A stretch of DNA of 64,000 nt, from assembly GCF_008831285.2 (NCBI RefSeq), contig NC_045138.2, positions 1,563,143 to 1,627,142 on the forward strand, given 5' to 3'. Position 1 is the first letter of the stretch; each line of letters begins with the position of its first letter. A program made the position numbers and the translations under genes. The notes under the pieces were generated by a model. It was not told the DNA's origin. It worked only from the letters and a program-made list of their open reading frames with translations, and made no database searches. The stretch comes from Nymphaea colorata (taxonomy: Eukaryota > Streptophyta > Magnoliopsida > Nymphaeales > Nymphaeaceae). Shown piece by piece: positions 8,847 to 43,202 of this stretch.

Positions 8847-11825
8847 GATGTCTCACTTTGTTACTAAGCTGGCATTTGCTGCGCTTAGTGGCAAAGATAA
8901 GCACCACAAAATTTGAATAATGAAAATTTTGGCTAAAAAGCTTAAAATGTCGGAACTACATTTCAAGTTTAACCCTTTGCCCTGAATGGGTTGTTTGACC
9001 TTATGTAAACCCTTGCCTGAGGTTTGCCGAAATTGAATTTAATTTAACTCCCTTGAATTGATTGCCTTGGCTTGTATTGCAATATTAACTCCTTACCTAC
9101 GTGGGTTGCTCTGGCTTGCATTACAGGTTTAACCCCTTACCTGCGTAGGTTGTTTTAGCTTTGCATTGCAGGTTTAAACCTTTACTTGTATGGGTTGCTC
9201 TTTTGTCCATAATTTCAGGCTTAACCTCTTTCTTCAATGGGTTGCTCGATAACAAGTGTCAATGCTAGGAAAGAATCTTCATCACCTTGAATACCTTTGT
9301 TGAAGCTGAGAATGAAACCCTATTGCTCTTCCAATGGTTGTGACAAGAAAACTTCCTGTCACCTCGAGTGCTTTTGGGGGAAATTTTTGTTTTCACGAAA
9401 AGCTCGATTTTGAACTTGCTTAGGAAAATTCCCCAAACCAGCGCTTGGGCTGAGCTTGCTTTGAAAAGCCATTGACCAAATGACCAAGTTGTGCTTGTTC
9501 CATAAGTTTCCCTTGTCCAATGACATAGTTGAGCTAACTTCGGAATGCTCTAAATCTAGAGGTGGGATTGCGCTTGATCAGATCTTTAGCTTAGTAGCTG
9601 AATTGGTTTGATTGAGATATGACCTACACAAAGAAAGAGGGTAGTTTCAAAATATATGTCACAAAAGCAATTTAGAAGTGCCTCAAAATATTCATAATTT
9701 AAAAAATACCCCAGTGTTAGCAATTGTCATGATTGATAAGTGATAGGATATGATTTAAAACAGAATGTGCTAATGTACTCGGTAAAAGAAGGTGGTTGAA
9801 TCTTAGATTGGGACTGAGGAGAAGAAAATAATGGAAAATGCCTTGGTGTTAACAATTGTCATGACTGAAAAGTGATAGGATATGATTCAAAACAGAATGT
9901 GATAAGTACTAGGTAAAAGATAAATGGTTGATATCTTGGATTGAGACTGAGCCAAAAAAAAGAAGGAAAATGCCCCTTTCAAAGAAGGTGTGGACACAAC
10001 TATATAAAGAAACTTTATATATTTCTTGCTAATAAGGAAATGAGAATGAAAGGTAATAACATGTGTACAAACTCAGATATGAAAGAATTTTCGATTTGTA
10101 TTTAATGACAAGCAATTGGGACAAAGCCTGCAGAAAAGGCAATTGGGACAAAGCCTACAGAAAAGGAATTTGTTGTAAGAATATGATTGGTAAATAGTGA
10201 TTTTCATAGCGAGATATCAAGTTGATAATATTTCAAATTAATATAGAAAAACAAAAAAAATACGAGTGATTTATTACTTGTGAAGAATTTTAATTTTGAA
10301 AGGATTAAATTTTAAGCAGAGTGTAAATATATGAGGTTTGATTCATGAAGATATTGACTCAATAGGTGTGAATGAATAAGTCAAACTCAAGTGTTGGACA
10401 ATTGAAAATAGAATATACTGGAGTAAAGCAAAGATTGGCATTCAACTTGAAATAAATGATGACCCAATCAAATCACAGAAGTAATAAAATAGGAGGAAAG
10501 ACATATTATGGGTATTGAACCTAGAAAATTATTTGGCTAAATTTAAATGAAGAAAAATGCATGACCTGAGTCAAGCAAAGTTGGTAATTGAGCCAATAGA
10601 TGGGTATCATGTTCAAGAATAGAAGGTTTAACAAATAAATAAATGAGAGATTGACAAGATATGATAAAATGTAGATTTTGAAGTAATTCTAGAAAAGGGA
10701 CTTGCCAAGGAATAATTGATGACCTACCAAAATTATGAAAGTAGTAAAATTGGAGGGAAGTCACACTATAGGTATTGAAGCTAAAAAATTTTTGGCTAAG
10801 TATAAATGAGGGGAAAAAATGAATGACTTGGGTCAAGCAAAGTTGGTAATTGAACCAATAGATGACTCTCATGTTCACTAATAGAATGTTAGATAGATGA
10901 ATAAGTGAGGGATTGCCAAGGTATGATAAAATATAGATTTTGAAGCAATTTAGAAAAAAATGGACTTTTTGAATGGTAGTATTTGGATAATCAATGTCAC
11001 TTAGGTAGTAGGGTTGAAGCACGATTTTATGACGTGGTCATGTTGAAGACTATAGAAATTATCAAAGAAGACAAGACATTAATTCAAATGATGAAGATGA
11101 AATGTAAAATTGTTGAATTGATCAAGGAGTGCTTGGAAGGCACACATGCACTCATCATATAATGATAAACAACCAATATTTTCTAAAGTCACATTTACCA
11201 TCCATCATGTAGCTTAGTTTGATCAATTATGAATATTCCATATAAAATATGCCAATATACCTTCAACAGTGGCCCTAGTACGAGCATAGACTCTACCATT
11301 AACCAAATAAGATCTGGGTTTCTCATGTCTCCTTGGTCACCCGTCAATATACCATAAGTTATCACTCATAGTATGAACGAGAGAGTTTTCCCGCCCAATG
11401 TATGGTCCAGTTGTAAGGCTTAGTCTTTTGCTACCACCTAAGACCAAGACAACATGATAACTGAGAGAAATAGGTATTGGAAGTTTTTGAAATATGAGCA
11501 AGCATGCAAAACCGGTTGTCTCTAATACAATGTTTTCTATTGACAATGATTAAAATAAATAGAAGATCAAAGATTATTTTCAATCAAGTCTTAAATTGAA
11601 GAGGATTATATTTCATCTTAGATCTATGTAAATATGATTAATCTTCCTCAATTAGACTAAATGCAAGACAGCAAACAATAAGGAATGTAATGAAATTCTG
11701 ATGCAGTCAAGGTCAAAGAAAGGAATATGCTTTATCATCAGCAATATATGAGATGTTCAAGTTTGTCAAAATGCATCAATGATAATCATAGCCCCACAAT
11801 GACGAGTCCCATCACGGTCGTCATC
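8847..11825 (+). mobile_element. Non-coding internal region of long-LTR element (I1)
   Basis: About 3 kb lies between the 5' LTR at 5639-8846 and the LTR beginning at 11826. No gag, protease, RT, RNase H or integrase motif is visible, so the element looks non-autonomous, in the style of a large retrotransposon derivative (LARD). The first ~70 bp (CTTAGTGGCAAAGATAAGCA) are repeated, diverged, right after the LTR at 13499 and after that at 34795, as expected for sequence just inside a 5' LTR. The rest recurs at 30393-32310 and 57134-59441. No clear primer-binding site complementary to a common plant tRNA, and no purine tract before 11826, could be recognised. Confidence 0.65.
8961..9245 (+). 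repeat. Degenerate tandem repeat, ~45-60 bp units
   Basis: The phrase TTTAACCCCTTACCTGCGTA followed by GGTTGCTC-like text recurs about five times (near 8969, 9085, 9127, 9171, 9221) with variable spacing. It lies at the 5' end of the internal region. It encodes nothing recognisable. Confidence 0.7.
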
Positions 11826-13499
11826 TATTTGCAACTCCAAAAATTTTTTGTTTTTTGAGTGCTCCAAGAAAATGAGGTTTTGTTTTGAAATGAAAGAGAA
11901 AGGGACTCACTCGTCGGTACAAGGATCGACCATTCTTAGAGCCTTTGTCGGGGATAATCAATCCAAGAGCTATGCTTATTTTTTATGCATTTCACTTTTG
12001 CTTAAACATCTTTTTCATTCTAAATATCGTGCAGTGTTTTGAGAAAATATTTAAGATTTGATATTTCAAAATTTTGAGCATGTTAAAAAGAATCATTTGA
12101 GGTTGTATGATTTGGAAAATCTTGAATTGAAAGATCTTTACAAATATTGTTTGGAAACATTTGAAGATCATCATTTGGAAATCACTTTGGCATTCTCTTA
12201 AGACTTCAAGTAGGTTTGATGTTTTCTTCGAATTTGGTTACTACCTAATTAGAGCTTTATCTCATCTTGCTTAAGTTGTTTTAGAAATGTGTTTGCGATC
12301 GTTTGTGATGTTAAGTGAATGTGAATGTATGAATGCATTGATCTTACATGACTAAAATGGAATCATTCATTCCGACCATAACATTCAATTAAGAGCAGTT
12401 CTTCTATTACATACCTCTAAGATTTTTGTTTTATAATTGTCATGAATATTTTTAAGAACAAATATTTCATTTATTGTAAGGAAAGTTATATCTCCCACAT
12501 TGGGTATTGGAGAAAAACAAGCATACATAAAATAGAAAGTTAATAATATACAAAATTTGTCATTGGGATCCCTAGTCAGATGACTAAAAGAAACGATAAA
12601 TGTAAGAATCGCATGAAAACACAATTTAACATGTTCACATTCATTAGGGTTCACATTCGTAAGGGTTTTCTTGTGATGAACAAGTCTCACTTGGGGGTGT
12701 TAGCAGGGCTAGTGCCCACCCAACAGACCCAAAATTTTAGCCCAAAACAGGGCTTGCATTGGGTGCAGGCCATGCCAGGGTGCGCATGGCCAGGATTGGC
12801 CAGACGCGAGGCTAAGGTGTGGTTTCCCCATATTGGCTCATTTTTTGGGCCAACGAGGGGGGTTTAAAGCTCCTTGGCCCCCTCGGGTAGGGTTCACTAA
12901 AAAAATTTAATTTTTATTTTAAATGCACATTTGAAAAGGCAAAATGGTCCTTTTGTTAAAATGGGTCCAGTTTCAATTTGGGAGGTTTTGGGTACGTTTT
13001 AGACTGGGATCTGGTTCGCTCGATCGCAAATGCGTTCTAATCGATGCCCAAGGCTTGACTCAAGGGTTAGATGTGTGTTTTGAGCTCAGAACATATTCTT
13101 AAAAGTTTTTGGCATAAGGTTGTGACGAAAAACAAAATGGAGGTTTGCAAGGACACATGCGACGTTAAAAAGTATCGAAAATTGTTGTGGATCTGTTTCT
13201 TAATATGGACTCAATTTTGACTGGCCGGGCTTGATTATGGATCTTGGATATGTATTTCAGCTTGAAGTGCAAATATTGGATCTCTGACTTGGATTTTGAT
13301 CTAAATTTGTGTTTGAAGTTGGATTTTGGATTTAAAAGTGCTTTTGGATTTAAATATGGGTCTAGAGGTCCGTTTTGGGGCAAAATTGGGTCCAAACTCT
13401 ACAATTTGAAAAAAAATTGCCATAAACATGATTGAAATGACTGAAATAGTGTTTAAAAAGATGGAGTGTAATCTTTTGGAAAAAATTGGAGTGACAACA
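11826..13499 (+). mobile_element. Long LTR, shortened (L3)
   Basis: It begins TATTTGCAACTCC (family start TGTTTGCA) and ends TGACAACA at 13492-13499. It is followed by GCTGCCCTTCTTTGCTATTA, which is also found after the LTR of copy B. Compared with its duplicate at 32311-34795 it has lost about 880 bp after 12690. The lost segment is bounded by a short CTCA microhomology, typical of end-joining or slippage deletion. The conserved block GGGACTCACTCGTCGGTAC is at about 11902. Because internal-type sequence follows it as well as precedes it, the array is LTR-internal-LTR-internal, not one simple element. Confidence 0.75.
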
Positions 13500-15809
13500 G
13501 CTGCCCTTCTTTGCTATTAAGTAGGTGTATGTCGTGCTTAATGGCAAAGATAAGCATCAGATTTTGAAAACAAAACATCCCTTACCCAAGTGGTCTGGAA
13601 GGTACCACATTATATGCTTGATCTCAATGCTAGAAAAAAGAGTAGCGATCGAGGGGAGTGAACAATAGGAGAAGATTTAATTAATTAAGTCGAAATTAGG
13701 TAACATGCTATCACAAAGGGAATCATCAGATGTGATTGGAAACCAGCTTGTATTGAAAAGCACATAATCATCTCCCAAAGACTAGACATTGTGGTGGTCA
13801 AGGAGCCTACTCCAGGTCATCTAAGCTCAATGGACTCAGCTCAAACAAGAATTGTTAAGTGATCAAGTTTGGGAAATTTGTCTGAAATTGACTCATACAA
13901 AGGGATTTAACATTCCTATTAAGAAGGTCAAGCCCAGGGATGTCAATATATCGAATTTGAATTGGATGTATATTTTTCCATATTTGATTTATTGTGTATT
14001 GACCTGTTCAAATTTTAAGACGAATATATAAAAGTCTACTATATCATAATTCAATTTTTAAATTCATAACCCGAGTCCGATTCGAAACCCACATTTATTT
14101 TTTGCATCCAAATCCAAATCCAAATCTGACTTTTAAATTTGCAAATTGAATCCCAACCATATTGTATATGTTAAAAATTAACTTTCAAAATGTATGGATA
14201 ATGGATATAAGATATTTGTTTGAAACTGAATCCAGATCCAGATCTAAGCCTGATTCGATATTTTTTAAAATTGTATCCACATCCAATAAAATTTTTTCTT
14301 ACATCTGAATTTGATATGATTCATTAATCATATGTTAATTCTTTTTCTCTACATCAAGGTTATTTGAAAACGGTTGTCCAAATTCTATTGATTTACATCC
14401 CCATTCAAGATAGACTTCCTTTTTGAACTTATGTTCTAAAAATTAAAGTAAAAGAAGTATCCCCCTTTTATGAATAGCAAGTCAAGGCGAGCAATTTTCA
14501 GTCTCAATGGTGTAGCATAACTAGTCTGGTGAGAGCCTGTTTCTGTTCATTTCACGTAGGAACTACTCTTCTAGGTCCACTCATGTCCTGAAGTAGTAGG
14601 CGAGGAGAAGGGGGGAGCTTCGATCCTTCGGTTGCTTCTGCCTTCAGATACACTTTCCAACCTACTCTATACCCGTCTATGTTGCCGGTTGTGATGTTCA
14701 ATCGATAGTTTAGTGGCACACAAGGATACGCCATCTTGATCGTGCCAAAGTAAGAACTTCTCAATGGGATTTGAGGTAGCAAGCAGTGGTGGAGCCACTT
14801 GCTAGCTGGTGTCGGCAATTGCCTACGTCAGCCGAACAAAACTTTTATTATAGCATCTCAAGATCACATTGTCATGACTCAAAAATTACATGCTATGCCC
14901 ACATGCAAGGGCAAAGCCAAAAGGGGGGTCTGCATGGGCCCTGAGACCACCTTAATTTTTTTTAATTTACATGTAAATTTTAGAAAATTTATTTTGTCTT
15001 ATATAAAATTTTTGAAAAATGATATTTCAGCCTCTATCAAAATTTAAAAACTTTAATTTGGCCCCTGTGACACATTTAAGAGATTGCAATCATCTTATTT
15101 CATTTAATTTCCCCTATGGTAGTATGAAATGTCAAATCCATTTTGTCTTAAGCTAATTAGTTCCACATTATAATTTAGTTAGTTGGTTAAGGTCCATAAT
15201 AAAACATTTTCCATGATATTTTCTTATGAAAATATCATTAAAAATGCATCTAGAATTGAAGCTGAGAAACAGTCTTTCAAACATATTTTCATGTTCAAAT
15301 TCAAGAAACAAGAGTTTGTTCAGTTTAAGTCAACGGCATCAAAAGAAGAACTAGATGGTGGCTAAATCATTTGTAGGACAGCAGACCCCTCGACATGCAT
15401 GGGCCAATATCAATATCAGGGCCCCAACCAATAGTCCCATTAGACCCAGGGTGGAGCGAAGCATAGTCATTGGGTCGGGTACCCGGCCTAACTCGGGCTC
15501 GAGAAAAAGAAATCGGGTCGGCCCTACTAAGCCCAGTTTGACTCAATAAAATTTTTTAATATTAATTATATTGATTTTCACTTATAATATTTTATTACAA
15601 TTAATTATATTTTATATGATATTTTATATTAAAAATGTATATATTTTAATTTAATCGGTCTGTGTTCGGGTTTTGGGTGTCGGGTTGGGTTCGGGTAGCT
15701 TTCTCATAGTAACGTCCTGCATAATCTGCCTAAGGTGCTAGTGGATTGGATTTTTTTCCAACTAGTGACACAAATCCCTATCTTTAGGTATCGCTAGCGA
15801 TGTCCACCT
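13500..15809. other. Unassigned TE-derived sequence after L3
   Basis: The first ~100 bp is 5' internal sequence of the long-LTR family. The remainder is AT-rich with WCCAAATCCAAATCC-like runs (14030-14330), a hAT-MITE-like start at about 14784 (CAGTGGTGGAGCCAC), the ACATGTAAATTTTAGAAAA tail at 14960-15000, and a GGGTCGGGTACCCGG motif at 15470-15535 and 15665-15700. No gene with recognisable domains was seen. Copy B is 34796-37028. Confidence 0.6.
14552..14818 (-). pseudogene. Unidentified ORF fragment, conserved in copy B
   Basis: An 88-residue reading frame whose first ~12 residues come from a MITE end (CAGTGGTGGAGC read in reverse). The remainder (IPLRSSYFGTIKMAYPC... and GYRVGWKVYLKAEATEGSK) has ordinary protein-like composition but matches no family I recognise. 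The duplicate at 35804-36052 keeps the frame for about 70 residues and then shifts by a G insertion. This could be a host gene scrap or chance. I assign no function. Confidence 0.25.
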
Positions 15810-16139
15810 GGAGATATAATCTAACGTTTGATTCATATGCAGATTTGACTGGTTGGATTCCATAAGAAAATTCAGATCTAATTAGGAAAACTGGATGCAA
15901 GTTTGTTATCGTATTTCATACCCAATTTCAGTGGACAACTGAATCAGACTACCTGGAAAAAATTGGATATATTTGTAATCCCAAATCTGAATCTGAACTC
16001 TGATACTAATAAACAACACCAGATTACTCAATTATGCTGATGTTATATCCGATCCAAATCTAATTAGTTGACGTCCAATGATTCTATTTCTTTATATTAG
16101 AAGTTCTCTGCATTTACTAAAAAAAATAAAAGACATTTG

Positions 16140-16463
16140 AATGCCGCAAAATCAGCCACGGTTCATTTCCGTGGCGAACAAGCGAGTGGCCCCCACCATT
16201 TGAGAGATAAAAGGGAGCAAAGTTTTTCAATAGATATTCACCCACGCGCATATTTGAGCCCATAGAGAGAGAAAGAGAATCAATCCATCATTGATCGAGA
16301 GAAAGAGAGGGACAGAGGGAGGGCTTTGCTTGAACCAAGGAGTTCACAGACTTCATTTTCACGCTTCTTCTCTTCTCTTCTATTGTTCACAGCTCTCGAT
16401 TGCAGGTTTCTTCTTCTCGAGTTCTCCTCTCTTCTTCGATCACAAAGGGAACTCCACGGGTGA
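16140..16463 (+). promoter_or_regulatory. Promoter-like block with CT-rich leader and donor site
   Basis: The stretch reads like the start of a plant transcription unit. It has a GC-richer upstream patch (GCCACGGTTCATTTCCGTGG, a small dyad, then GTGGCCCCCACC), a TATA-like GATAAAAGG near 16206, and a GA- and then CT-rich leader with TTCTTCTCTTCTCTTC at 16365-16440. It ends in a good splice donor (CACGG|GTGAGG) near 16458. No ATG-initiated coding exon follows, so the donor would open a 5'UTR intron. It lies 1.8 kb upstream of the RLCK-V inverted repeat on the same strand. It is identical in copy B at 37360-37683. The role is inferred from composition only. Confidence 0.45.
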
Positions 16464-18288
16464 GGGATGATATATTGGTTCCATCTAATGAGCTAGAGAT
16501 TGAGCATAAGGTCTAGCTGGTTGAAGGAGGTTTAGAGTCCAATATTTGGAGTGTACCTTTTGGGCTCAATATGATGTTATACCTAGTGCCAGGTCGTCAG
16601 ACCAAAAAAAAAAAGGAAAAGGTTTGGAAAATCTATAAAATAGACATCCGCAATCTATGATGGAGTCGATATCTGGATGCAAGTAAAACTTTTGGGGATA
16701 ATACAGATAAGACTGTCAATGACGTCATGTTAACAATATAAGCTCAAGTTTGAATATGATGTAAAGGAGGCTTTAGTCTAATGTCTAAAGAATAGTTATC
16801 ACAAATTATATATTGTATTCATTTCCAACTCTTTGGTTACTCCTTCTGGTTATCTGTATGTTAGCTAGGTTTTTCACTAGATAGTTATTTGAGAAACTAC
16901 TTGTTTAGGTAGTCTAGTCACTAATCTAGGGTTATGACTACCACTACAACAGCTAAAAGTAATTTCCTTTCACTTTTCCAAAAGTTTTTTTCTTTTTAAA
17001 TTTAGTGACATTTTAATCTTCTATCGTCTATTCTAATTTCTAAGTATTGACAGGAGATCTTTCCAACAGCTATTATAAAGGATGAATGAACCCTTTTAAC
17101 ATCATCATGGATTAGAGGAAGCCTACTCCATGATGATGACATGGGCATGACTCAAGCCCACGTCCCAATGCTGATCATGTGTTTCTATGTACATTATTAT
17201 TATTATTATTTAAAATGAACTGTCACATCCACAATATCCTAAAATATCATCAAGTGGCATCTTTTATGGATATAATTATGTTTCAAAATCTCACATTTTC
17301 TTAGAAATAATACAGCAATAGAGGCAATATTTTCTCTTTGGCATAATATAATTTATTGAAAAATACAACCTAAAAAGGAAAGGCATCTTCACCCCAAGGT
17401 GCAGTGACAGAGATCGCAAGGATATATAGAGGCTCAAGTAATTGCTTTGACCAATCCAAGGACATTGGGAGAGAGAGAGAGAGATACCTCATACCGTTTT
17501 CTATCATTTCTCTTATTCTTCTTTTATATGAATACTTTTTCTGTGGTTCTTTCATGCCACTCGTCTTGTTTTTTCCCTTTAGGTTGTGTTTGATCTTGGC
17601 GATACACGCTTGGGACACGACGAGGAGATTACCGAGCGGGACACGTCCAACAACGGGGTGACATGAGGTGGCTGGACGCGGATCCGAATTTGTGAATGTG
17701 GGATGGCCCCTCCAATATTGAAAACCCAACCCGGGGTGAGAACGCACAGGTTGGGTATTGGATCATCTTTGGGCGATCTGGGGCAGAACCCGGATCCATT
17801 TTTTGTGTATCGGTCGATTAAACCAGGTCTACTAAAAACCAGGCGAGTTTTTTTGAGCAGATTCGGTTCGACATGCCAGACTCGGTTGTCGAACTGAGTC
17901 AGTGGGCAGACAGCTTGCACACGTGAGGCCGCCTGCATCCCTCTTCCTCTCCCGCTCCTTCAAAAACCAGCGACGTGAAGGAGCTTGGGCCTTTCAATCG
18001 AAATTTTACCTATTAATAGGGTATTTTTGTCTTTAATTTGAAACAACAAACTGTCTGGGCCTGACAGTATATATATATACACTGTATTATCCCACCAGTT
18101 TGGCCTTGCCCTTTTTCTAGTGATACATTATCGTAGGGCCTACGAAACCTCATGTCGGGTGCATTTACATGTATAGCTAGCTTTAAATGAGATGAAATTT
18201 TGACGCAGTACTATGTTTATAAAACTCTGGTTAAAATCATTTTCTAACATGTCAATGGAGAAGCTGTCCTGTAACCATATGATGAAGA
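16464..18288. other. No gene seen; conserved non-coding spacer before hairpin
   Basis: This stretch links the promoter-like block to the RLCK-V inverted repeat and is identical in copy B except for an A-run (16603-16613, 11 versus 12 A). It holds an ATT microsatellite near 17190, a short GA run near 17470 and a GC-richer part at 17590-17990 with CCCGG/GGGTT motifs. The short ORFs there (for example 17579-17938 minus) have no recognisable domain and look like chance. A TATATATATACACTGTAT stretch is near 18070. Confidence 0.55.
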
Positions 18289-18720
18289 TCTGATACATCG
18301 GGTAAACCTGTCATTGGAGAAGCTGTCCTGTAACCAAGTGATGAAGATGGGTTATGGACATGCCCCGAGCTTCCATCATCACCTGACTGTGAACTGCCAG
18401 CTCTCTCCCGCTGATAAACTGAACTGCACTGACTGATATTATCGGCATCACTTGATCTGCCCCTGCCCAAATGCACTGACATCTTCTCTGAGTCATTTGT
18501 GCTAGACTGATCATGCAAATTGAAGGCAACACCATCATGATTTCGGAAAGCTGTATTCAGATTATGAGCAGCCACTCTGTCAACTTTTATCTCCTTGGAT
18601 ACACTGGGGATTTGAGATAGTGGGAATTTATCCAGTGTTCTTGTGGCTTTCTTTTGAGAGGCCAACCACATAGCCAAAATAGACAAAGCCAATGCTATGA
18701 ATATCCCAACTGAGATACAG
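18289..18720 (-). pseudogene. RLCK-V receptor-like kinase fragment, minus arm
   Basis: Read on the minus strand, this is the N-terminal part of a plant receptor-like kinase of the RLCK-V group (At3g59110 / At2g42960-like, from memory of the family). A membrane segment (LWVVICISVGIFIALALSIL) is followed by a juxtamembrane part with SLSQIPSVSKEIKVDRV-like text, SDADNISQCSSVYQRE, AGSSQSGDDGSSG and TASPMTGLPDVS. The frame is open through this part. The fragment stops where the family would continue into HLGWGHWFTLRDLE and the kinase domain, which is absent, so no kinase can be made. Just outside, at 18243-18288, the last ~55 bp is tandemly repeated. The matching plus-strand arm follows at 18822. 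Confidence 0.85.
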
Positions 18721-18821
18721 ATCACGACCCATAATTTGAGACCAAAGAGAGCTGTCTCTTACAAGACAATCCGAGATGCGACTCTTAAGTCTGTCTCTGT
18801 TAGTCTGTTAGTCTCTGAAAG

Positions 18822-19250
18822 CTGTATCTCTGTTGGGATATTCATAGTATCGGCTTTGTCTATTTTGGCATTGTGGTTGGCCTCTCAAAAGAAATCCAAA
18901 AGAACACTGGATAAATTCCCTCTCTCTCAAATCCCCAGTGTTTCCAAGGAGATAAAAGTTGACAGAGTGGCTGCTCATAATCTGAATACAGCTTTCCGAA
19001 ATCATGATGGTGTTGCCTTCAATTTGCATGATCAGTCTAGCACAAAAGACTCAGAGAAGATGTCAGTGCATTTGGGCAGGAGCAGATCAAGTGATGCCGA
19101 TAATCTCAGTCAGTGCAGTTCATCAGCTGGAGAGAGCTGGCAGTTCACAGTCAGGTGATGATGGAAGCTCGGGGCATGTCCATAGTCCATCTTCATCACA
19201 TGGTTACAGGACAGCTTCTCCATTGACAGGCTTACCCGAAGTATCACATC
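18822..19250 (+). pseudogene. RLCK-V receptor-like kinase fragment, plus arm
   Basis: This is the same RLCK-V N-terminal segment on the plus strand: ISVGIFIVSALSILALWLAS, FPLSQIPSVSKEIKVDRVAA, a serine-rich stretch with SSDADNLSQCSS, then a frameshift near 19120 caused by a small deletion. The downstream text continues in another frame as GSSQSGDDGSSGHVHSPSSS and TASPLTGLPEVS. It pairs with 18289-18720 over about 430 bp with roughly 5 percent differences. It has no kinase domain. Because of the frameshift it is more decayed than the minus arm as protein, but not as an RNA duplex. Confidence 0.85.
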
Positions 19251-19348
19251 ACATGGTTTAAATTTTTCTTACATATTTTGTTTTTTGGTGGTTATTCTAT
19301 AATAATTCCATGATTGGGAAATGAACCTTTTAAAATACACCAACTAAA

Positions 19349-19592
19349 GATCCCTGATGATCTCATGGAATGTTGTTTTGGATCTGGGCATGCATTTTAA
19401 CATATTGGATCTCTAACTAAAGAACGCCATTTAAACCGACTCCACACCTGGTTTCACCTTTATATCATCAAAAGAATCGGACTAACCTATGGTCAATTCA
19501 TCAAACGGTTATTACGATATTATGCATGGATTTGTTTGAATCTGTGTTCTACTAGCCATTATGGCATCTGACTAATTGGACATTGGTGAAAC
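19349..19592 (+). repeat. Dispersed ~250-bp repeat (copy in A)
   Basis: Matches 858-1111 and 40569-40812. It starts about 100 bp beyond the RLCK-V inverted repeat. No terminal repeats were recognised. Confidence 0.85.
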
Positions 19593-20816
19593 AAATCCAA
19601 AACCCGGCTAAGATTCACATAGAAAAATGCTTAAAAACTAAACCAGGTTACTCATACGTACGTGAAAGGCTGATTATTAATCAAGGCTGATTATTAATCA
19701 GACCCTGGATTTCTGAAATATCCAAACATAAATTTGTATTTGATATCTGAATCAATTCCTAATAGTCTATATATATTCGTATTTGGCGGTAAATGTTGCT
19801 TTCAAATTTCCAATCACCCTAAAAACTATGGGAATTTTGTTTTTCGAGCTTATGTTTTTCTTATAATTGCAATCACACTTCATAAAACACTGCCAAATAA
19901 CGGTACAAAGTAAAAACCAGTTGAACCAAAAAAAAAAATCGATGGATCAATGGGTTTTTAAAGTGCTTAAAATCCTGTTTGTTTGAACAGAAATGAAATT
20001 CCAAAGACGGATTTGAGTCTAGAACCAGAGGCTGGCGAAGAAGATCAGGATGGAGACGACTCCGAATCTAAGGCTATTGACGGATCTCAAGAACGGATCT
20101 GAGATCTGCAGCTTTTCATGGATTTAAGGTCAGACCCCACCCTGCAATCCGACCATAAATCCATGGTTTTTTAACACATAGCATGAATTTTAAAAAGTGA
20201 TCAAGGTTGTGTTTGTTTCAACAGGGATCTGAGATCCGTAACGCTCCATGGATTTAAGATCAGAACTTGATCCATAATTGTTTAACATGCAGCATGAATT
20301 TTGAAAGCCAAGCTAATGAACTGAAGATCTCTGAAAACGTACTCATTTTTATATAGCCTTAGGTTTAAGATCTGAGACTAAACGCAACCCACATGAAATA
20401 GGCCACTGAATGTGTCATTGAAAGGGAAGTAAGTGGTTAGGGTTGGGATTTAATCTACTGATCACAATTTTTGAATTAATCAGATATTTCTTAATTGAAT
20501 CCGTGCTTGGGCTCAGAACTGGAGTTGAATTTTTGAAGCCGAACCCGAATCTGTCAATGATAAGACAACAGGTTCAGATCCGCATTCACTGAGTTATTGA
20601 TCACATCGGTCATACAAACTCTACAATTAATGAATCGAATTAGGATCCAAATCAGTTTCTCTTACGGGATGCTACTAAATGGATGTGGTTTTGGACTGAA
20701 ATAGGATCTTATCCACCCATTAAGATCCTAGTCAAGAAGTAATAATTTTTTTTGCTAGCAATGCTACAACTCATTTACGAAAAAGTTCTGAAGCCCTGAT
20801 CCCCTTTCCCTTGTCA
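19593..20816. other. No gene seen
   Basis: AT-rich sequence with repeated GGATTTAAGRTCAGA / GATCTGAGATC phrases around 20070-20330, where a ~100-bp unit seems to be present twice in diverged form (20095-20190 and 20225-20300). It is shared with copy B at 40813-42021 with percent-level substitutions. No domain, RNA gene or transposon end was recognised. Confidence 0.5.
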
Positions 20817-21002
20817 ATATGGTCAGTAGCGGAGATGGGTGCAGGCTGGTGTAAGTAATTGCCAACGCCAACCAACACATATGGTCAGTAGCAGAGCTGG
20901 GTGCAGGCTGGTGTAAGTAATTGCCAACGCCAACCAACACATATGGTCAGTAGCGGAGCTGGGTGCAGGCTGGTGTAACTAATTGCCAACGCCAACCAAC
21001 AC
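20817..21002 (+). repeat. 62-bp tandem repeat, three units
   Basis: Units start at 20817, 20879 and 20941 (ATATGGTCAGTAGCGGAGMT..., ending GCCAACCAACAC). They differ by one to three bases. Each unit contains AGTAGCGGAGCTGGGTGCAG, similar to the hAT-MITE ends nearby, so the array probably arose from one MITE end. Copy B has only two units (42022-42145), so the unit number changed after the duplication. Confidence 0.92.
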
Positions 21003-21295
21003 AAGTTCTTGAAAAAGTTTACTACGAGGTAGTTGGATGTAATGTCCACTCTAGACTCACGTCAATGCCCCATAAGCACCAAACCTTCTAAAGTTAGTGC
21101 CCATTTAATAAAATTTTTCTGCTCTGCCACTTTATATGGTTTAAGGCCGCTTTAAAGTTTGTGTGAACCCATGGTATACCCATCAATTAGAGGATCGTAT
21201 TGTCATTGTTTGCTGTTGAGCTACGTAACAACCATAGAAATAAAATTGATGATCCAACTCTTGCCAACCGCCAGCCCGACTAACTACACTACTAC

Positions 21296-21478
21296 CAGTG
21301 GCGGTGCTACTTGTAGGCTGGTGTGGGCAATTGCCCGCATCAGCCAAACAAAAATCTTATTATAGCGTATCAAGATCACATTGTCATGACTCACAAATTA
21401 CATGTTATGCGGACACCAAACTTGTGTTGCCAACTCAAGTGTCCCTTAGCGAAAAAATTCTGGCTCTGCTGCTGACTG
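21296..21478 (+). mobile_element. hAT-like MITE (~183 bp)
   Basis: It starts CAGTGGCGGTGCTAC and ends with the diverged complement CTGGCTCTGCTGCTGACTG. Plant hAT-type MITEs commonly have CAGTGGCGGAGC ends; the assignment rests on these ends. No clear 8-bp target duplication is visible. It has no coding capacity. The copy at 42438-42620 keeps the canonical CAGTGGCGGAGCTAC. Confidence 0.6.
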
Positions 21479-22226
21479 CAACATATTTGATCTTCAAAGT
21501 TCACAAAGGTTATCCACACCAAAAACATAAGCCGTCAAACAATCTTAGTTTGTGATATCATATTCATTGTTCGCGACAAAGTTTCAACCTTTTTCTAGCA
21601 AATAAACTGGTACGGATCTGCCTAACTCCAACCGAAAAAATAAAATTAAATTAAGAATGTCAATGTTGATATGCCACCAAGAATAGATCCAAGAAGTCTA
21701 AATTAAGTTTTTTTAGGACATTTTGTCAATATTGATCTAAAATTTTCTTAGACCAAGAAAGAGGAAGTTTGTTCAAATAAAAATATTTCAAAAAGAAAAG
21801 AGAAAAAAGTATTATTCTACCAGCGGCTTTTGAGATTTTTTTAACGTATCTGAAAGCGTGTGGAATTGGGTATTCATCCACCGGATTCAAACTTTTGTAT
21901 ATAACATATCCCCATATAGAGGTCTGGCAATTGGGAATTGTAAATGATAAGAATTGGTAAGAAGGGCTTTGTCATTTTTTATTGTACTGGATCAGCTTTA
22001 GACCGGACGACCGGTTCATGCGGTGCACGTCCAGCCGTTCCCGTTGAATGGAATATATGATAACCACTAGGTCTGTCCTTTTATCATGAATGAACACCAT
22101 TTGGTTGGTGGATTGCTGGTCTTAACTTCTGTGAGACCTAAAAGTGATTAATTATGTATGAGAAGTTGATGTCTTGACCAATGAACATAAGAAGGCTTTT
22201 TTTTGTGAGAATATTTTGGATAATGC
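21479..22226. other. No gene seen
   Basis: AT-rich, non-coding to the eye. In copy B this interval contains two extra segments (43013-43225 and about 43524-43690). It is not clear whether A lost them or B gained them. Confidence 0.5.
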
Positions 22227-22338
22227 CAGTGGCGGAGCTATATGATGATTGGTTTGGGCAGTTGCCCACACTAGTCTCTTTAAAATTTGTTTATTTTTAA
22301 ATGGGCATTTCCACCCAACTTTTCTGGCTCCGCCACTA
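22227..22338 (+). mobile_element. Short hAT-like MITE (112 bp)
   Basis: Terminal inverted repeats CAGTGGCGGAGC and GCTCCGCCACTA enclose about 90 bp containing GGGCAGTTGCCCACACTA, itself a small dyad. The flanking 8-mers do not match, so the target duplication has decayed. The duplicate at 43730-43842 has a mutated left end (CAGAGGCAGAGC). Confidence 0.75.
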
Positions 22339-22623
22339 GAGAAAGGTATGCCGTGGCCGGAAACAGACTGGTATCGAGCAGCTCAGCAATTGACTTGGTT
22401 CAGTTAGCTCGTTCGCATACATGGTGTTCAGATCAGGCTGGATCTTGTACGTATTCATGTCACCTGTGACATTTCTTGTTTAACTTGTTCACTCATTTAA
22501 CTAATTCAAGCTATGCTGAAGCGGTTTTCTGTAGTCAAACTGAGTTGAGTTCAAATAGGTCAAGTTCTTACAACTTGAACTCAACTCAGTTAAAATTTCA
22601 AGTTATCAAGTTGTGTTTTTTCA

Positions 22624-22957
22624 TGCATGTTCAAGTTTGGCTCGTTGTGCAGAAAGAAAGTTATGTGAGCCTGGGTGCACCATGCACAGTAAAGGAGGGG
22701 AGGACATTTTGGTAATTTATTAAAAAGTCCTCCATAGTCCTTTTACTTTGTTCATTTTCAATTTTGACTTTTACAAAAAGTTTTCTTTTTCAGTTTTTTC
22801 AGTTTGAACTCAGGATATTTTAGTCATTAACAACACGGGCACACGAAAAATAGTGCACTAGTATGACCCATATAACCAGGTTCTGGGTCAGTCAAGACTG
22901 GGATATGGTTGAAGCAGTAAGAGGCATGTTTCCCACGGTGAGATAAGCACCACAAGT
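22624..22957. other. No gene seen; beyond end of duplication A
   Basis: The sequence continues uninterrupted past the point where copy B stops matching. There is no coding or repeat signature except short T/A runs. Confidence 0.45.
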
Positions 22958-23745
22958 GATGCCTTAATTATATGTCTGCATTCTAACAAGTTACCTGCAG
23001 AGATAAAGGCCATGTCCCTGTGTGATTCTTGTCCTGTCAAACACTTCGTTCCCATTTTAGGCACCTTTGGCAATTTATCACAATGAGAAATCATGATTTT
23101 AAAGTTAACATGTCTGATTTTTTAGGTTGAAGAATGGTTGCCGTGCAAAAAAACTGTTCGTGGCTTTTCTTGTTGTTTTTTGCCAGATTCCTGCGACATC
23201 CATCCTTCTCCATCTGAGCTAACAGAGAAGGAGAGAGAGTGATCAAGATCAAAAGAGAGATGAAGATTGGCTTGGTTTCATTAGAGAGAGAAGAGAGGAG
23301 TGGGGGAGAATACATGGTTTAATCCTTTTCTCTTTTTTTTTTTTCCGTCCGGCGAAATGCCCATTGCATGATTAGATGATGTTTTTAATCACATCTAAGC
23401 AGTCATGAATTAGTATTGGCCACGGTTTTTAGCTACAGAATGCAGGTATTAGAAACAAAAGAAACCAAACGGAAAGCGAAGGTCAATTCTACTTGCTTTG
23501 TTTGCAGAACAACAAAACAGAGAACTCATACCACGGAAAATATTATGCAGTCAACGGAGATCATAACGCAGCAGATTCCAGAAACAGTACAGAACCGAAA
23601 TTCTTGTAGCCTAAGAAAAGCCTCTACAACTATAAAAAAGATGTACCTTGATTTTGCAGCAACCGACCTTGATCAATAAAATCTGAGGGGAAAACAACAC
23701 AAAGAAGAAGCAAGGATCAGATAACCCACCAGGAACATGCCTAGT
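22958..23745 (-). pseudogene. Unidentified host gene 5' fragment (copy 1)
   Basis: On the minus strand a CT-rich leader (23230-23310) precedes an ATG at 23213. That opens a short frame with MEKDGCRRNLAKNNKKSHEQ. Farther down, a coding-like segment KMGTKCLTGQESHRDMAFIS ends exactly at a CAG|GTAACT splice donor near 22996. These look like first exons of a plant gene, but I do not recognise the product. The same 0.78-kb block occurs at 55874-56647, where the ATG reads ACG and the encoded peptides differ slightly. Both copies begin abruptly at GATGCCTTAATTATATG, so the fragment was moved as a unit. Neither can make a complete protein. Confidence 0.5.
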
Positions 23746-24305
23746 TATAATACTATTAGACACTAAAAATTTACCACTTGAAAGAAAGCGTGAAAATTAT
23801 AAGTCTAGTAGTCATAATAATTCAAGTAATATACAAAATTAGAAGCACGCAGAAAAAGAGAGAGCACCCCCCTGCAAATGTATTTGTCAGCGAAAGCCAA
23901 AAAACCCCATACCTTTTACCATGATTTTCCTAAAATGTAACAAGAAAAGAGCCAGGATACAAAGAATCATCGAATGGGCTTCTTCCCAAGGAAACAAAGA
24001 CCAGGAAGGAATTCCTACCAATTTAGCAGAACATGCGAGCTTGGAAACAAAAAAGTAAAGTGAAGCAGAGGCCAAGTCTAGTGACTTTATGAATAAAATA
24101 GACCACTTGCAAAGAACCAATCTCATGGCAAAAGCAGCCTAAACAAAGAGACAAAGCCAAGCAAATGTAATTAAAGAAAAACAATAAAAAATGAAAGACA
24201 AAAGGAAAGCAAAGGACAGATGGAAAATTTCCCTCATGCATACACAAACGAATATGCCCCAAACAGGATCATGTTCATGCTAAATTATTGAATCCAAACC
24301 TTAAT

Positions 24306-24674
24306 TGTAACGGAAGCGTACCTGAATCCATTTGAAGGGCACAAACGGTAGATCGCAATAGGATCTTCCAGGGTTTGTGCGGCGCACGTGCAGTCGCTCT
24401 CAGATGGGGAAGACAACCCTAGAAACCAATGTTTCTGGTAACCATTTGCACGATCACAGGGACTACCATTTTATATTATGGGCAATTATGGATTCAACCC
24501 ATCAAAGAGTCCGTAATTGCGTATAGGTATTTATACATTACAAAATTACCCCATACCATATAAAATGACGTCATATCCCAAAACGCAATCACTTAAGCAA
24601 ATATTTACATTAAAACAGCCACAATGTCTGAAATTTCTCATAGACATATGCCGGCCCACCAAATGGTCCTTACA
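24306..24674 (-). mobile_element. Copia 3' LTR (369 bp) with purine tract
   Basis: On the minus strand the LTR starts TGTAAGGACC at 24674 and ends GTTACA at 24306, giving matching TGTAA...TTACA termini. It is preceded by the purine tract GTGGGAGAT (24675-24683), as expected upstream of a 3' LTR. RNase H coding sequence lies 300 bp farther upstream in the same orientation. A second, 5'-truncated copy is at 27471-27825. No target duplication could be fixed. Confidence 0.7.
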
Positions 24675-24976
24675 ATCTCCCACATTGGCCAAATATGTCT
24701 TTATACATTCAGACATTACATAAAACCTTAGGAGCTCATAACTGCTATCTTATTAAACATCATTTTCACCAATCTCGTGCATGATCATATCAACACAGAA
24801 CCAAAGCGACTTTAGCTATATAAAAATTAGTTAAACGTTCAATGATCACAAATGTTAGCACAATAAAAAATCTTATGGAGATCAAAAACATAAACACAGA
24901 ATGGAACCAAAGAACTTTAAACTGTATTGTGCAGAAAACTTAATATGTATTCATGCAAACAAAAAACAAACTCTCA

Positions 24977-25762
24977 CTAAACCAGCACATTATCCAAGGA
25001 TAACACCACCATATGAACAACATGTTCGTAAAAGACTTTAGGTGTTAAACCCTTAGTAAATGGAACCGCAATCATAGAGTTTGTCCTAATATGCTCTAAA
25101 GACACTTGATCATTCTGTATCATCTCTTTAATAGCCAAAAACTTAATGTCGATGTGCTTCGACTTTGACAAACTGCGGCTGTTATTAGAGTATATGACTA
25201 CTGAATTATTGTCACACAATAACTTTAGTGGTCTTTCTACATCATTTACAATACGCAGCCCCGTCACAAAATTCCGTAACCACAAAGCATGATTGGATAT
25301 CTCGTAACATGCTATGAATTTCGATGTCATGGTTGAAGGGGATCTTATTAACCAAAGAAATACGACTTTGCGCTATGGTGAGTTCAGCACCAATCAGGAA
25401 TCCCCAATAGCTACAAGTGTCTGTTTGACACTCCTCTAGGATATAGCTCCTCCATCCAATAGAAATACATAGCCTGGAGCAGACTTGCAACTGTTTTGGC
25501 ACCCTGCAAAGTCAGAATCTGAATACCCAATGATCTCCAACTGGTTTGACTTCCTGTATGTGAGCATAAAATCTTTTGTTCTTTGTAAGTACCGCAATAC
25601 TCTTTTGGCTGCTTTCCAATGATCCATATCAGGATTACGTAAGTATCTGCCTAACATTTCCTCGATAACTGCAATATTCAAACGAGTACAAACCTGAGCA
25701 TACATAAAGCTTCCCACAACAGACGAATAAGGAATCATTTCTATTTCCTTAGATTCGATCAT
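24977..25762 (-). pseudogene. Ty1/Copia RNase H remnant (3' end of pol)
   Basis: Minus strand. The start holds the RT/RNase H junction (SSVVGSFMYAQVCTRLNIA, then DHWKAAKRVLRYLQRTKD) and [12 protein letters not shown], the first RNase H catalytic region. After a frame break near 25440 the end of RNase H follows (LLCDNNSVVIYSNN, SKSKHIDIKF, and a degraded form of the usual ADPLTKG). In the middle about 80 bp of foreign-looking sequence (25335-25415) replaces the usual SWKSAKQTLVA segment. RT proper is absent upstream of 25762. It is dead, and its sister is 27826-28440. Confidence 0.88.
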
Positions 25763-26640
25763 TTAACTTAGGAATAGTACTCAAATTTGCATATATCATG
25801 GAAGCAAAATGCATCGTACAAAGAACAAAATTACCAAAACATGCTCATAATCAATACATGTACAAAGATGAAATAACAAATATAAATGAATTTAAATACA
25901 ATGGCCTAAATCCCATCACAAGGTACCGGTGCAACGTTAATATCAAATCTTTGGATTGAAATATTAACTGAAAGTGGTATTCTTGGTCAACAATGAATAT
26001 AGATAATTAGCTCTGTCAAATAACGAGCCCATCTTTGGATTGACTCACTATTCACATGGAAACCTGAAAACTATCACAAATTTATTGCCCTATATGCTTG
26101 AACCTGACCAAACAACAATCCTCCTTTGAGTTGATCATTACCTGCTTGGATTTAGTACACCATCATCTATGGTTCAAAACTGGCAAATTCGTACCATAGA
26201 GGTCCGTTTTGCGATATGAAGTACAAACCTACTCATTTCAAACAATAGACATGACGAAAGATCAAATTCATGGTCCAAACATTCATCTAAAGTATATCCA
26301 CAATCTTAATAACATGCAAAACATGATACATGAATTAAAATTCACATACAAAATTTTGCCCTACATTGAATCCAAAACCAAATGATTTAATGAAATAAGC
26401 CCAAAATAGTCCAAAATTTTATAAAACGGTACCATAATTGTCCTTAAGTAGGTCAAGAACCACTAAATCAGCCTTAAAATAGCCCATATTGTTCTTAAAC
26501 CACAACTAAAACACCCACATGGCCCTAAATAGGGCTGAACTAGTTTAAAAATTGCATGAACCAGTAAAAAATAGACCGAATCGGCCCCAAAACCCACTTA
26601 ACATGTTGAAAAATGGCTAAAATCGGTTTCAAAACTGAAT
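25763..26640. other. No gene seen; shared by both tandem units
   Basis: AT-rich sequence matching 28441-29330. There is no retroelement domain or host gene signal. Short ORFs are chance. Confidence 0.5.
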
Positions 26641-26900
26641 GAACCAACCTAAAAAGCTCTGAACTGGTTAGAAAAATCAACTGAACCGGTCAAAAATTCA
26701 ACTGAATCGGTTTGAAAACAACTGAATTGGTTTGAAAAGCAACTGAACCGGTCTAAAAATCAACTGAACCGGTCTGAAAATCAAATGACCGGTTTGAAAA
26801 GGGTCCGAATCAGATCCAAAAAGTACGAACCAGTTCCAAAAAGTTCTGAATCGAGTTGAGTGGTCTGAAACTGAATGAACCGGTTCAAATCTCTTCAGAA
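26640..26900. repeat. ACCGGT-rich ~21-bp tandem repeat
   Basis: The phrase CAACTGAACCGGTCTGAAAA recurs about ten times with small changes (26645-26800 clearest). The matching array in tandem unit 2 is at 29340-29570, with a different number and order of variants. In one minus frame it gives a repetitive FRPVQL-type peptide, which I regard as a by-product. Confidence 0.8.
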
Positions 26901-27470
26901 CCGGTTTAAAAGAAAAGGAACCGTTTTTCAAAATTTAAACCGAATAGATAGTGTGAAAATGATCAGTCTAGTAGTCATAATAATTCAAGTAATATACAAA
27001 ATTAGAAGCATGCAGAAAAAAAGAGAGCACCCCCCTTGCAAATGTGTTTGCCAGCGAAAGCCAAAAAACACTAGCCCTTTTACCATGGTTTTCCTAAAAT
27101 GTAACAAGAAAAGAGCCATGATACAAAGAATCATCGAATGGGCTTCTTCCCAAGGAAACAAATACCATGAAGGAATTCCTACCAAGGTCGCAGAACATGC
27201 GAGCTTGGAAACAAAAAATTAAAGTGAAGCAGAGGCCAAGTCTAGTGACTTTATGAATAAAATAGACTACTTGCAACGAACCAATCTCATGGCAAAAGCA
27301 GGCTAAACAAAGAGACAAAGCCAAGCAAATGTAATTCAAGAGAAACAGTAAAAAATGAAGGACAAAAGAAAACCAAAGGACTGATGGGAGATTTCCCTCA
27401 TGCATACACAAAACGAATATGCCCTAAACAGGATCATGTTCATGCTAAATTATTGAATCCAAACCATAAT

Positions 27471-27825
27471 TGTAGAGGAAGTGTACCTGAATCCATTTGA
27501 AGCGCACAAACGGTAGATCACAGTAGGATCTTCCAGGGTTTGTGCTGCGCACGTGCAGTCACTCTCAGATGGGAAAAAGACAACGCTAGAAACCATTGTT
27601 TCTGGCAACCATTCACACGATCACAGGGACTTCGATTTTATATTATGGGCAATTATGGATTCAACCCATCAAAAAGTCTGTAATTGCGTATAGGTATTTA
27701 TACATTACAAAATTACCCCATATCATATAAAATGACGTAATATCCCAAAACGCAATCATTTAAGCAGATATTTATATTAAGACAGCCACAATGTCTGAAA
27801 TTTCTCATAGACATATGCCGGCCCA
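27471..27825 (-). mobile_element. Truncated Copia LTR (unit 2)
   Basis: Matches 24306-24659. Its inner terminus is changed (TGTAGAGGAAG instead of TGTAACGGAAG). The 5' tip was removed by the deletion at 27825. Confidence 0.7.
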
Positions 27826-28440
27826 TCATAGACATGTGCTTCGACTTTGACGAACTGCAGCTGTTATTGGAATACATGGCTACTGAATTATTGTCACACA
27901 ATAACCTTAGTGGTCTTTCTACACCATTCACAATGCGCAACCCCGTCACAAAATTTCGTAACCACAAAACATGATTGGATGCCTCATAACATGCTATGAA
28001 TTCCGCTGCCATGGTTGAAGGGGATCTTATTAACCAAAGAAATACGACTTTGCGCTATGGTGAGTTCAGCAAAAATCAGGAATCCCCAATGGCTACAAGT
28101 GTCTGTTTGACACTTTTCTAGGGTATAGCTCCTCCAGCCAATAGAAATACATCGCCTGAATCCGACTCGCGACTGTTTTGACACCCGACAAAGTTAGAAT
28201 CTGAATACCCAATGATCTCCAACTAGTCTGACTTCCCGTATGTGAGCATAAAATCTTTTGTTCTTTGTAAGTACCGCAATACTCTTTTGGCTGTTTTTCA
28301 ATGATCCATACTAGGAATACCTAAGTACATGCCTAACATTCCCTCGATAAATGCAATATCTAGATGAGTATAAACCTGAGCATACATAAAGCTTCCCACA
28401 ACAGACGAATAAGGAATCATTTCCATTTCCTTAGATTTGA
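27826..28440 (-). pseudogene. Copia RNase H remnant (unit 2)
   Basis: Minus-strand copy of the 25148-25762 part of the RNase H remnant. It contains [20 protein letters not shown] and LLCDNNSVAMYSNN, preserved better here than in unit 1, including AAEFIACYEASNHVLW. Stops and frame breaks remain. The C-terminal part is deleted. Confidence 0.82.
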
Positions 28441-29624
28441 TCATTTAACTTATGAATAGTACTCAAATTTGCAGATATCATAGAAGCAAAATGCATTGTA
28501 CAAAGAACAAAATTACCAAAATATACTCATAATCAATACATGTACAAAGATGAAATAACAAATATAAACAAATTTAAATACAATGGCCTAAATCCCATCA
28601 CAAGGTACCAGTGCAACGTTAATATCAAATCTTTGGATTGAAATATTAACTGCAAGTGGTATTCTTGGTCATCAATGAATATAGATAATTAGTTCTGTCA
28701 AATTACGAGCTCATCTTTGGATTGACTCACTATTCACATGAAAACCTAAAAATTATCACATATTCATTGCCCTGTATGCTTAAACCTGACCAAGCAACAA
28801 TCTTCCTTTGGGTTGATCATTACCCGCATGGATTTAGTATACCATCATCTAAGGTTCAAAACTGGCGAATTCATACAACAAATGTCACTTTTGCGACATG
28901 AAGTACAAACCTACTCATTTCAAACAATAGACATGACAAAAGATCAAATTCATGGTCCAAACATTCATCTAAAGTACATCCACAATCTTAATAACATGCA
29001 AAACATGATACATGAAGTAAATTTTACATACAAATTTTTGCCCTACATTGAATCCAAAACGAAATGATTTAATGAAATAAGCCCAAAAGAGTCAAAAATT
29101 TTATAAACCGGTACCATAATTGCACTTAAGTAGATCTAGAACCACTAAATCAGCCTTAAAATAGCCCGTATCATTCTTAAACCGCAACTAAAACACCCAC
29201 ATGGCCCTAAATAGGGCTGAAATGATTTAAAAATTGCACGATCAGTCAAAAATATGCCAAATCGGCTCCAAAACCCACTCAACATGTTGAAAAATGGCTA
29301 AAATCGGTTCCAAAACTGAATGAACTAGACTAAAAAGCCTTGAACTGGTCTGAAAAATCAACTGAACCGGTCAAAAAATCAACTGAACTGTTCAAAAAAT
29401 CAACTAAATCGGTCTAAAAACAACTGAATCGTTTTAAAAAAGCAACTGAACCGGTCTGAAAATCAAATAACCGGTTTGAAAAGGGTCCGAATCAGTTCCA
29501 AAAAGTACGAACCAGTTCTGAATCGAGTTGAATCGGTCTGAAACCGAATGAACGAGTTCAAATCTCTTCAGAACCGGTTTAAAAGAAAAGGAACCGTTTT
29601 ACAAAGTTTAAACGGAATGGATAC

Positions 29625-30392
29625 GGGTCGGGTACAAAATGACTGACCCGGATTCGAGAAACCATATTTTCAAAATTTAAACCTTATGAATACGGGTCTG
29701 GCCAATGCAACCCGACTCGAACCCGAAATCCAAAATGTAAACTGAATGGATACGCGTCGGGTTTGACATGACCTGACCTGGATCCGAAATAATTGTATGG
29801 ATTCGGGTTAGGTCAGCACGACCCGATCCGAACCCGAAATCCAAAAATGTAAACCAAATGGATCTGGGTCGGGTTTGACATGACCTGACCCGGATCCGAA
29901 GGAACTGTATGGATATGGATCGGGCCAACATGACCTGATCCGGATCCAAAATAACTTAAGCGCATGCGGGCGGCAAAAAGGAATTTTTTTTTGAAATCCT
30001 TATGGATCCGGGTCGGGTCTGCCATGACCCGACCCAAGTCCGACCCTCTTGCCGTGCTCGACGGTTCGCAGGCAGCAGAGACCTTGGGTGGGCGCCGTCC
30101 GGCGACGGGGGACTCGCTGGCGTGGCCGGATGGAGGCGGTGGAAGCTCTTTTCTACTGCTCATCTGCCTGCTCCTTCAATCCTTTGGGTGGCTACAATGG
30201 TGGCAAGAGAGCCACCGGGACGCCACCCAACAACGTGGGTGGCCCCCAGCGGGTCGCGCCAGGACGGCCGGAGGTCGGCCGTTGCCTAACGGCCGGTAGA
30301 CGCACGCCTAGACGGCCTGAAACCAGCCGCCCCTTCCTTTTACCCTTTCTGCAATTGCAACGGAAGGCTGACACCTTCCATCAGCTTCAACA
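29625..30392. repeat. GGGTCGGGT-rich degenerate repeat and GC-rich LTR-like end
   Basis: From 29625 to 30045 the paired phrases GGATCCGGGTCGGGT and GACCTGACCCGGATCCGAA recur about six times at ~60-70-bp spacing and form small dyads. From 30045 to 30340 the DNA turns GC-rich. Reading the minus strand, the segment starts TGTTGAAGCTGATGG at 30392, exactly where duplication B begins. That suggests the end of an LTR inserted there. ORFs in the GC-rich part (for example 30049-30411 plus) have no recognisable domain. Confidence 0.5.
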
Positions 30393-37028: not shown

Positions 37029-37359
37029 GGAGATATAATCTAACGTTTGATTCATATGCAGATTTGACTGGTTGGATTCCATAAGAAAATTCAGATCTAA
37101 TTAGGAAAACTGGATGCAAGTTTGTTATCGTATTTCATACCCAATTTCAGTGGACAACTGAATCAGACTACCTGGAAAAAATTGGATATATTTGTAATCC
37201 CAAATCTGAATCTGAACTCTGATACTAATAAACAACACCAGATTACTCAATTATGCTGATGTTATATCCGATCCAAATCTAATTAGTTGACGTCCAATGA
37301 TTCTATTTCTTTATATTAGAAGTTCTCTGCATTTACTAAAAAAAATAAAAGACATTTGA

Positions 37360-39940: not shown

Positions 39941-40041
39941 ATCACGACCCATAATTTGAGACCAAAGAGAGCTGTCTCTTACAAGACAATCCGAGATGCG
40001 ACTCTTAAGTCTGTCTCTGTTAGTCTGTTAGTCTCTGAAAG

Positions 40042-40470: not shown

Positions 40471-40568
40471 ACATGGTTTAAATTTTTCTTACATATTTTG
40501 TTTTTTGGTGGTTATTCTATAATAATTCCATGATTGGGAAATGAACCTTTTAAAATACACTAACTAAA

Positions 40569-43139: not shown

Positions 43140-43202
<63 letters not shown>

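Follow-up and report, generated by a model that had tools for sequence, protein, structure and literature searches.

Inverted repeats downstream of a promoter-like cassette in Nymphaea colorata: a candidate hairpin small-RNA locus matching a kinase gene

INTRODUCTION

Inverted duplication of gene pieces is thought to yield new small-RNA regulators in plants, and the cases compared here are single loci. Among the closest are SULF and YUP of snapdragon and monkeyflower, small-RNA loci that come from gene-derived duplications; in snapdragon, the small RNA of SULF acts on a pigment gene (PMC12371187). We analyzed a stretch of 64,000 nt from Nymphaea colorata (C1:1563143-1627142, here called the window), in which a conserved promoter-like cassette is followed by a long inverted repeat of a kinase-gene fragment. 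Like SULF and YUP, this repeat is gene derived. In contrast to those single loci, for which small RNAs and a phenotype have been shown, the cassette described here recurs with different repeats.

Other described systems share part of this layout. Young MIRNA genes of Arabidopsis keep extended similarity between their arms and the protein-coding gene of origin (PMC1790633 and PMC3237417). In the window repeat, too, both inverted arms resemble a single protein-coding gene over an extended length, as do the arms of natural inverted-duplication small-RNA loci. However, the MIRNA genes covered there are nearly all single, with microRNA (miRNA)-type foldbacks, whereas here the arms are ~430 bp long, the 5' cassette is shared by many loci and some arms are mosaics drawn from several sources. 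The siren loci, which give rise to 24-nt small interfering RNAs (siRNAs) in ovules, contain embedded gene fragments homologous to genes elsewhere (PMC9448652 and PMC13232879), and such fragments are present here; siren loci are defined by the abundance of siRNAs dependent on RNA polymerase IV (Pol IV), not by inverted repeats. In hairpin RNA transgenes a promoter is followed by an inverted repeat of the target gene, an arrangement that the window locus resembles with its promoter-like cassette and its repeat of the kinase fragment. Those constructs are engineered and, according to PMC9263138, become methylated in both repeat and promoter, whereas the window locus is described from its sequence.

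The reading that we prefer, with a probability of about 0.4, is that the cassettes form a MYB-derived family in which gene-fragment hairpins arose by template switching, the window copy being a putative source of hairpin-derived siRNAs directed against the kinase gene that donated the fragment.

RESULTS

An inverted repeat lies downstream of most cassette copies examined

The main new result is that most of the examined copies of a conserved promoter-like cassette have an inverted repeat downstream of them. In the genome searched (407.8 Mb in 783 contigs), the cassette gave 21 matches, which by our grouping represent 20 loci, the window accounting for two. For the C2 loci and a single C1 locus, the match to the query spanned ~60-104 nt, with longer alignments obtained after their DNA had been fetched, except at L048 (~143 nt). 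Fifteen of the 18 loci outside the window were examined (L012-L015, L020, L024-L032 and L048; the cassette of L027 itself lies in the adjacent L023), and C2:4952901, C2:5070545 and C2:5075679 were left out of the count. By self-BLAST with minima of 60 nt and 78% and a maximum spacer of 4.5 kb, 12/15 loci had an inverted repeat downstream, compared with 0/8 control segments of 8.4 kb each, four of which were taken within the same C1 and C2 spans (Fisher P = 0.0003; the loci are not fully independent, since L015 and L024, and likewise L020 and L028, are alike in the repeat region). Under a stricter criterion, a repeat was present in 10/14 cassette loci (P = 0.0017). Because none of the eight controls had such a repeat, a chance origin is unlikely.

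Few of the family repeats are alike in sequence, and most are unrelated. The highest arm identity among those listed belongs to L013, where positions 1633-2068 and 2850-3285 of C11:13888500-13897500 form a 436-nt inverted repeat at 99.5% that includes MYB 5' sequence. L021, retrieved for a different purpose and kept outside this count, has an inverted repeat as well. We found no published description of such a cassette family, as judged by titles and abstract openings, with subscription journals mostly uncovered.

Within the cassette, the 28-bp stretch that holds a TATA-like motif diverged from the consensus by 1.4% when all copies were compared, the lowest of 873 intervals (median, 6.5%). With the C1 and C11 copies only, its divergence was 1.8% (median, 6.3%), ranking 6 of 1106, and the lowest interval lay near 17345. 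The stretch is ~2 kb upstream of the window repeat on the same strand and constitutes a putative promoter. The coordinates of these features and of the repeat are collected in Table 1.

Table 1. Features of the cassette and the inverted repeat, in window positions
Feature	Position	Strand	Remarks
Conserved 5' cassette, copy A	15740-17596	+	Relatives at 18 loci outside the window on C1, C2 and C11
28-bp highly conserved stretch	16185-16212	+	Holds GATAAAA (TATA-like) and GTGGCCCCCACC
CT-rich leader-like stretch	16260-16459	+	Upstream of GT at 16460-16461
Acceptor-like pyrimidine tract and AG	17569-17582	+	AG at 17581 kept in 9/11 relatives aligned there
Tail of arm 1	18246-18289	-	Partial second copy of the arm 1 outer end, 44 nt; donor 3924-3963
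Arm 1, antisense kinase fragment	18285-18757	-	Donor (L011) 3515-3987, 95.6%
Loop segment, sense	18758-18806	+	From just 5' of the first coding exon of the donor; donor 3374-3422, 96%
Junction filler	18807-18821	+	Between loop segment and arm 2
Arm 2, sense kinase fragment	18822-19250	+	Donor 3552-3985, 94.9%
Short tail of arm 2, 12 nt	19247-19258	+	Repeats CATCACATGGTT; matches start of the arm 1 tail
Cassette, tandem copy B	36959-38816	+	Second tandem unit
Arm 1, copy B	39505-39977	-	99.5% to copy A
Arm 2, copy B	40042-40470	+	99.1% to copy A

The window repeat matches a kinase gene on C11

Self-comparison of the window placed head-to-head arms at 18287-18720 and 18822-19250, with an unpaired centre of 101 nt. 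The arms pair in two segments, one of 301 nt with 96% complementarity and one of 140 nt with 93%. Arm 1 and arm 2 of copy A differ at 24/434 aligned sites when the short tail is included (94.5% identity) and at 21/429 without it; 149 of the 409 21-mers of arm 2 are also present in arm 1. A 1002-nt strand of the repeat is predicted to fold as essentially a single long hairpin (-808 kcal/mol). This duplex of ~430 bp, ~95% paired, differs from the short imperfect foldback with one defined duplex that marks a MIRNA gene, and a search of the whole window against Rfam at gathering scores gave no miRNA family match, two tRNA matches being the only ones returned.

Among the matches listed, the sole arm match outside the window is a kinase gene at C11:16369373-16369986, ~95% identical to each arm. 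Its reading frame is open across the 221 codons translated, and further kinase exons, read by eye, follow downstream. The matches of the donor exon in the PDB are mostly kinases aligned from about residue 163 on; the captured part corresponds to donor residues ~12-169 and ends where these alignments begin. The next paralogue, on C10, has 61% protein identity to the donor. An earlier note, made from the letters of the window alone, had described arms of ~430 bp with a loop of ~101 nt at ~95% complementarity, read them as an N-terminal kinase fragment and proposed a search for the donor gene; the repeat search, the arm alignment and the open C11 gene agree with it on each of these points. The subfamily given in that note, RLCK-V, is a presumed label. 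Exact donor 21-mers account for 187/489 in arm 1 (tail included) and 206/409 in arm 2, and the potential for silencing the donor, at the level of sequence, would thus be large.

Each outer end of the repeat ends in a tail that repeats sequence of one common donor region, and we therefore consider that a single capture, tail included, probably preceded the inversion. At the junction of the loop, positions 18814-18827 are alike at 13/14 sites to arm 1 at 18543-18556, a likeness that may mark a template switch.

The donor appears constrained and the arms free to change, because substitutions common to all four arms relative to the donor are mostly synonymous (7 synonymous, 1 non-synonymous), whereas those specific to an arm are mostly not (7 synonymous, 16 non-synonymous; Fisher P = 0.011 against the common changes). 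One more non-synonymous site fell outside both classes. As a separate, post hoc observation, the arms of copies A and B have an unusual substitution spectrum: of their 32 substitutions, 11 are transitions, 15 are transversions of the complement type and 6 are transversions of other types, the corresponding counts among 355 comparison substitutions outside the arms being 223, 73 and 59.

The repeat and its cassette are duplicated in tandem

The arms and the cassette are present twice in a tandem duplication with a 21-kb period (9884-22409 and 30393-43913), 93-99% identical by segment. A second locus at 37360-40470, listed in the earlier note, belongs to the second unit. A partial third copy of the 21-kb unit begins at about 57384.

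A false inverted or tandem duplication made during assembly could produce such a picture, and the ~98-99% identity of the second copy to the first over the repeat-bearing segment, 8 kb further on, is what an artefact of that kind would leave. However, no runs of N were found in the window, the arms differ from each other by 5%, and other family loci bear different inverted repeats. We regard an assembly artefact as scarcely credible.

Cassette loci appear to derive from R2R3-MYB loci

Sequence of R2R3-MYB genes was found downstream of the cassette in L012, L013, L015, L020, L026, L028 and L032, partly as fragments and inverted at L015. At 4/14 loci (L013, L014, L028 and L032), both orientations of MYB sequence occur. 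A MYB gene at C1:385300 has intact-looking exons, and at 1.3-2.7 kb upstream it is preceded by the 3' portion of the cassette. For the window copies, a peptide search of the whole window for MYB gave nothing at E 0.01, and neither did a DNA search of 15001-31000. From these data we infer that the cassette loci go back to MYB loci and have for the most part degenerated, the cassette being either the distal promoter of the MYB gene itself or a separate unit.

Several of the repeats draw on unlinked sequences

Seven repeat regions, including that of the window, were searched against the genome. Clear unlinked sources, mostly at 86% or above, were found for three of them, namely the window, L012 and L032. 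The source of the window repeat is on C11. The arms of L012 come from C8 (mostly 92-94%, one piece at 79%) and its loop from C9 (91%). In L032, the outer arms match C4 at 86-89%, a spacer piece matches C9 at 88%, and the inner arms are 86-95% identical to C2 sequence a few hundred bases upstream of an S-adenosylmethionine (SAM) synthetase reading frame. The arms of L027 have matches on C13, C6 and C7, mostly at 77-82%, and a 55-nt piece on C3. For L028, a C6 match of 126 nt at 88% was found, the spacer is 87% identical to a nearby C2 stretch, and the remainder is local or repetitive. The only distant match of the L014 repeat is short (43 nt on C12), and those of L020 are short or weak (39 nt on C11; ~118 nt at 71% on C1). 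A stretch ~6 kb from the MYB gene at C1:385300 resembles the L024 repeat at 81-90% and is a possible local source of it. As a further observation, L032 3616-6849 (C2:5064715-5067948) consists of nested inverted repeats of C4 and C2 sequence with C9 and C10 pieces between them.

Transposons of the Pack-MULE, Helitron and miniature inverted-repeat (MITE) types are known to capture gene fragments, and the arms might accordingly be the terminal inverted repeats of such an element. Imperfect direct repeats of 10-11 bp do flank the arms. However, a 9-mer with one mismatch or none was obtained from 91/200 random flanks, which leaves these direct repeats weak, and a further flanking inverted repeat was looked for and not found. 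The arm matches listed are the two tandem copies and the donor, with no dispersed copies of the unit, and no inverted repeat was found at six fetched source loci of the other repeats or at the kinase locus. The transposon reading is thus disfavoured, and we judge it highly improbable.

Fragments of unlinked loci embedded at the window and its relatives would also be expected at a siren-like Pol IV locus, where gene fragments feed 24-nt siRNAs with no need of a hairpin and homologous genes are methylated in trans. Siren siRNAs are reported mainly from embedded gene fragments and as methylating homologous genes in PMC9448652 and PMC13232879. However, the CLSY3/CLSY4 motifs given in PMC12270911 are no nearer in family loci than in controls, and the best matches to CLSY motif 1 carry 4-6 mismatches whether they lie in family loci, in the window or in controls; the motif is Arabidopsis derived and may differ in Nymphaea colorata. 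The term "inverted repeat" is absent from the text of that report. We consider a siren-like origin distinctly unlikely.

Weighing the hairpin and debris readings

Under the preferred reading, a MYB-derived cassette family with a hairpin siRNA source in the window, the locus would trace back to the 5' region of an R2R3-MYB gene that increased in copy number, chiefly on C1 and C2. A fragment of the C11 kinase gene would have been copied in, gaining the partial tail duplication, and then inverted round a centre that is asymmetric, with microhomology-mediated template switching as the probable mechanism, before the larger unit was duplicated. RNA polymerase II may start near 16230 and read through the repeat, giving a transcript that would fold into a hairpin of ~430 bp. 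Dicer-like enzymes would then cut the hairpin into 21-24-nt siRNAs, which could lower the kinase mRNA or methylate the first coding exon of its gene.

Several observations weigh against this interpretation. The query by which the cassette loci were identified covered the TATA-like stretch, which favours apparent conservation there. Of six window tiles free of the kinase repeat, one contained an inverted pair (46475-46576 and 48566-48667; 102 nt at 95%, spacer of 1989 nt), near copia-type frames; with controls and tiles pooled, the comparison is 1/14 against 12/15 cassette loci (P = 0.0001). By the self-BLAST criterion no inverted repeat was found in L030, L031 or L048 (for L048, in a stretch of 6.4 kb only), and L026 (arms of ~69 nt), L025 and L015 (spacers of 2.6-2.7 kb) are weak positives. 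The intact-looking MYB at C1:385300 has no inverted repeat, and the promoter block was not found in the 8.3 kb fetched there. Since 15/21 of the copy A arm differences are transversions, G:U pairing is not being kept. C-to-T changes affect 4 to 6 of 194 C/G sites per arm, which is no strong scar of the kind that long-lived methylation might leave. Finally, the GT at 16460 is GC in 7/8 relatives, and we rejected a splice donor there as a conserved feature. Of the earlier note's picture, capture, inverted duplication and a promoter-like block upstream are supported, as is a donor gene that is similar to the arms and open over the part read. The block with its TATA-like box is conserved, whereas the splice-donor grammar that the note had read in the block is not.

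Because of the query ascertainment and the extra inverted pair in the window, we give slightly less weight to the hairpin reading than we otherwise would, and more to inert debris. On the debris view, the MYB-derived arrays would be a hot spot where error-prone template-switch repair produces mosaic inverted repeats whose expression, if any, is of no consequence. The mosaic junctions and filler are in keeping with such a history, as are arms that drift without preserved pairing. So is the finding that, in the stretches fetched, many loci have only incomplete or inverted MYB sequence, or none that could be found. In contrast, the TATA-like stretch is several-fold more conserved than the cassette median, and the four controls inside the same C1 and C2 spans were free of inverted repeats. 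These observations leave debris nearly as likely as a hairpin siRNA source.

A broader proposition, which we think rather doubtful, extends the hairpin reading to the whole set. The ~20 loci would then be a lineage-specific hairpin-RNA gene family whose members have in common a conserved promoter cassette linked to an R2R3-MYB region and recurrently gained unrelated inverted gene fragments. Such loci could act as evolvable sources of trans-acting siRNAs with changing targets, among them the kinase, the region upstream of SAM synthetase and MYB itself. If this were true, one could follow within a single family how hairpin loci are born, decay and come by their targets, and selection could be compared with a mutational hot spot as the driver of such loci.

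Other features of the window

A 78-bp element at 20117-20194 has dozens of matches on many chromosomes at ~80% and is possibly a MITE-like repeat. Reading frames of a copia-type retrotransposon, named by eye from their translation, occupy 46543-47880 and 49403-50900. The two tRNA matches in Rfam lie on the minus strand at 54676-54748 and 62657-62729.
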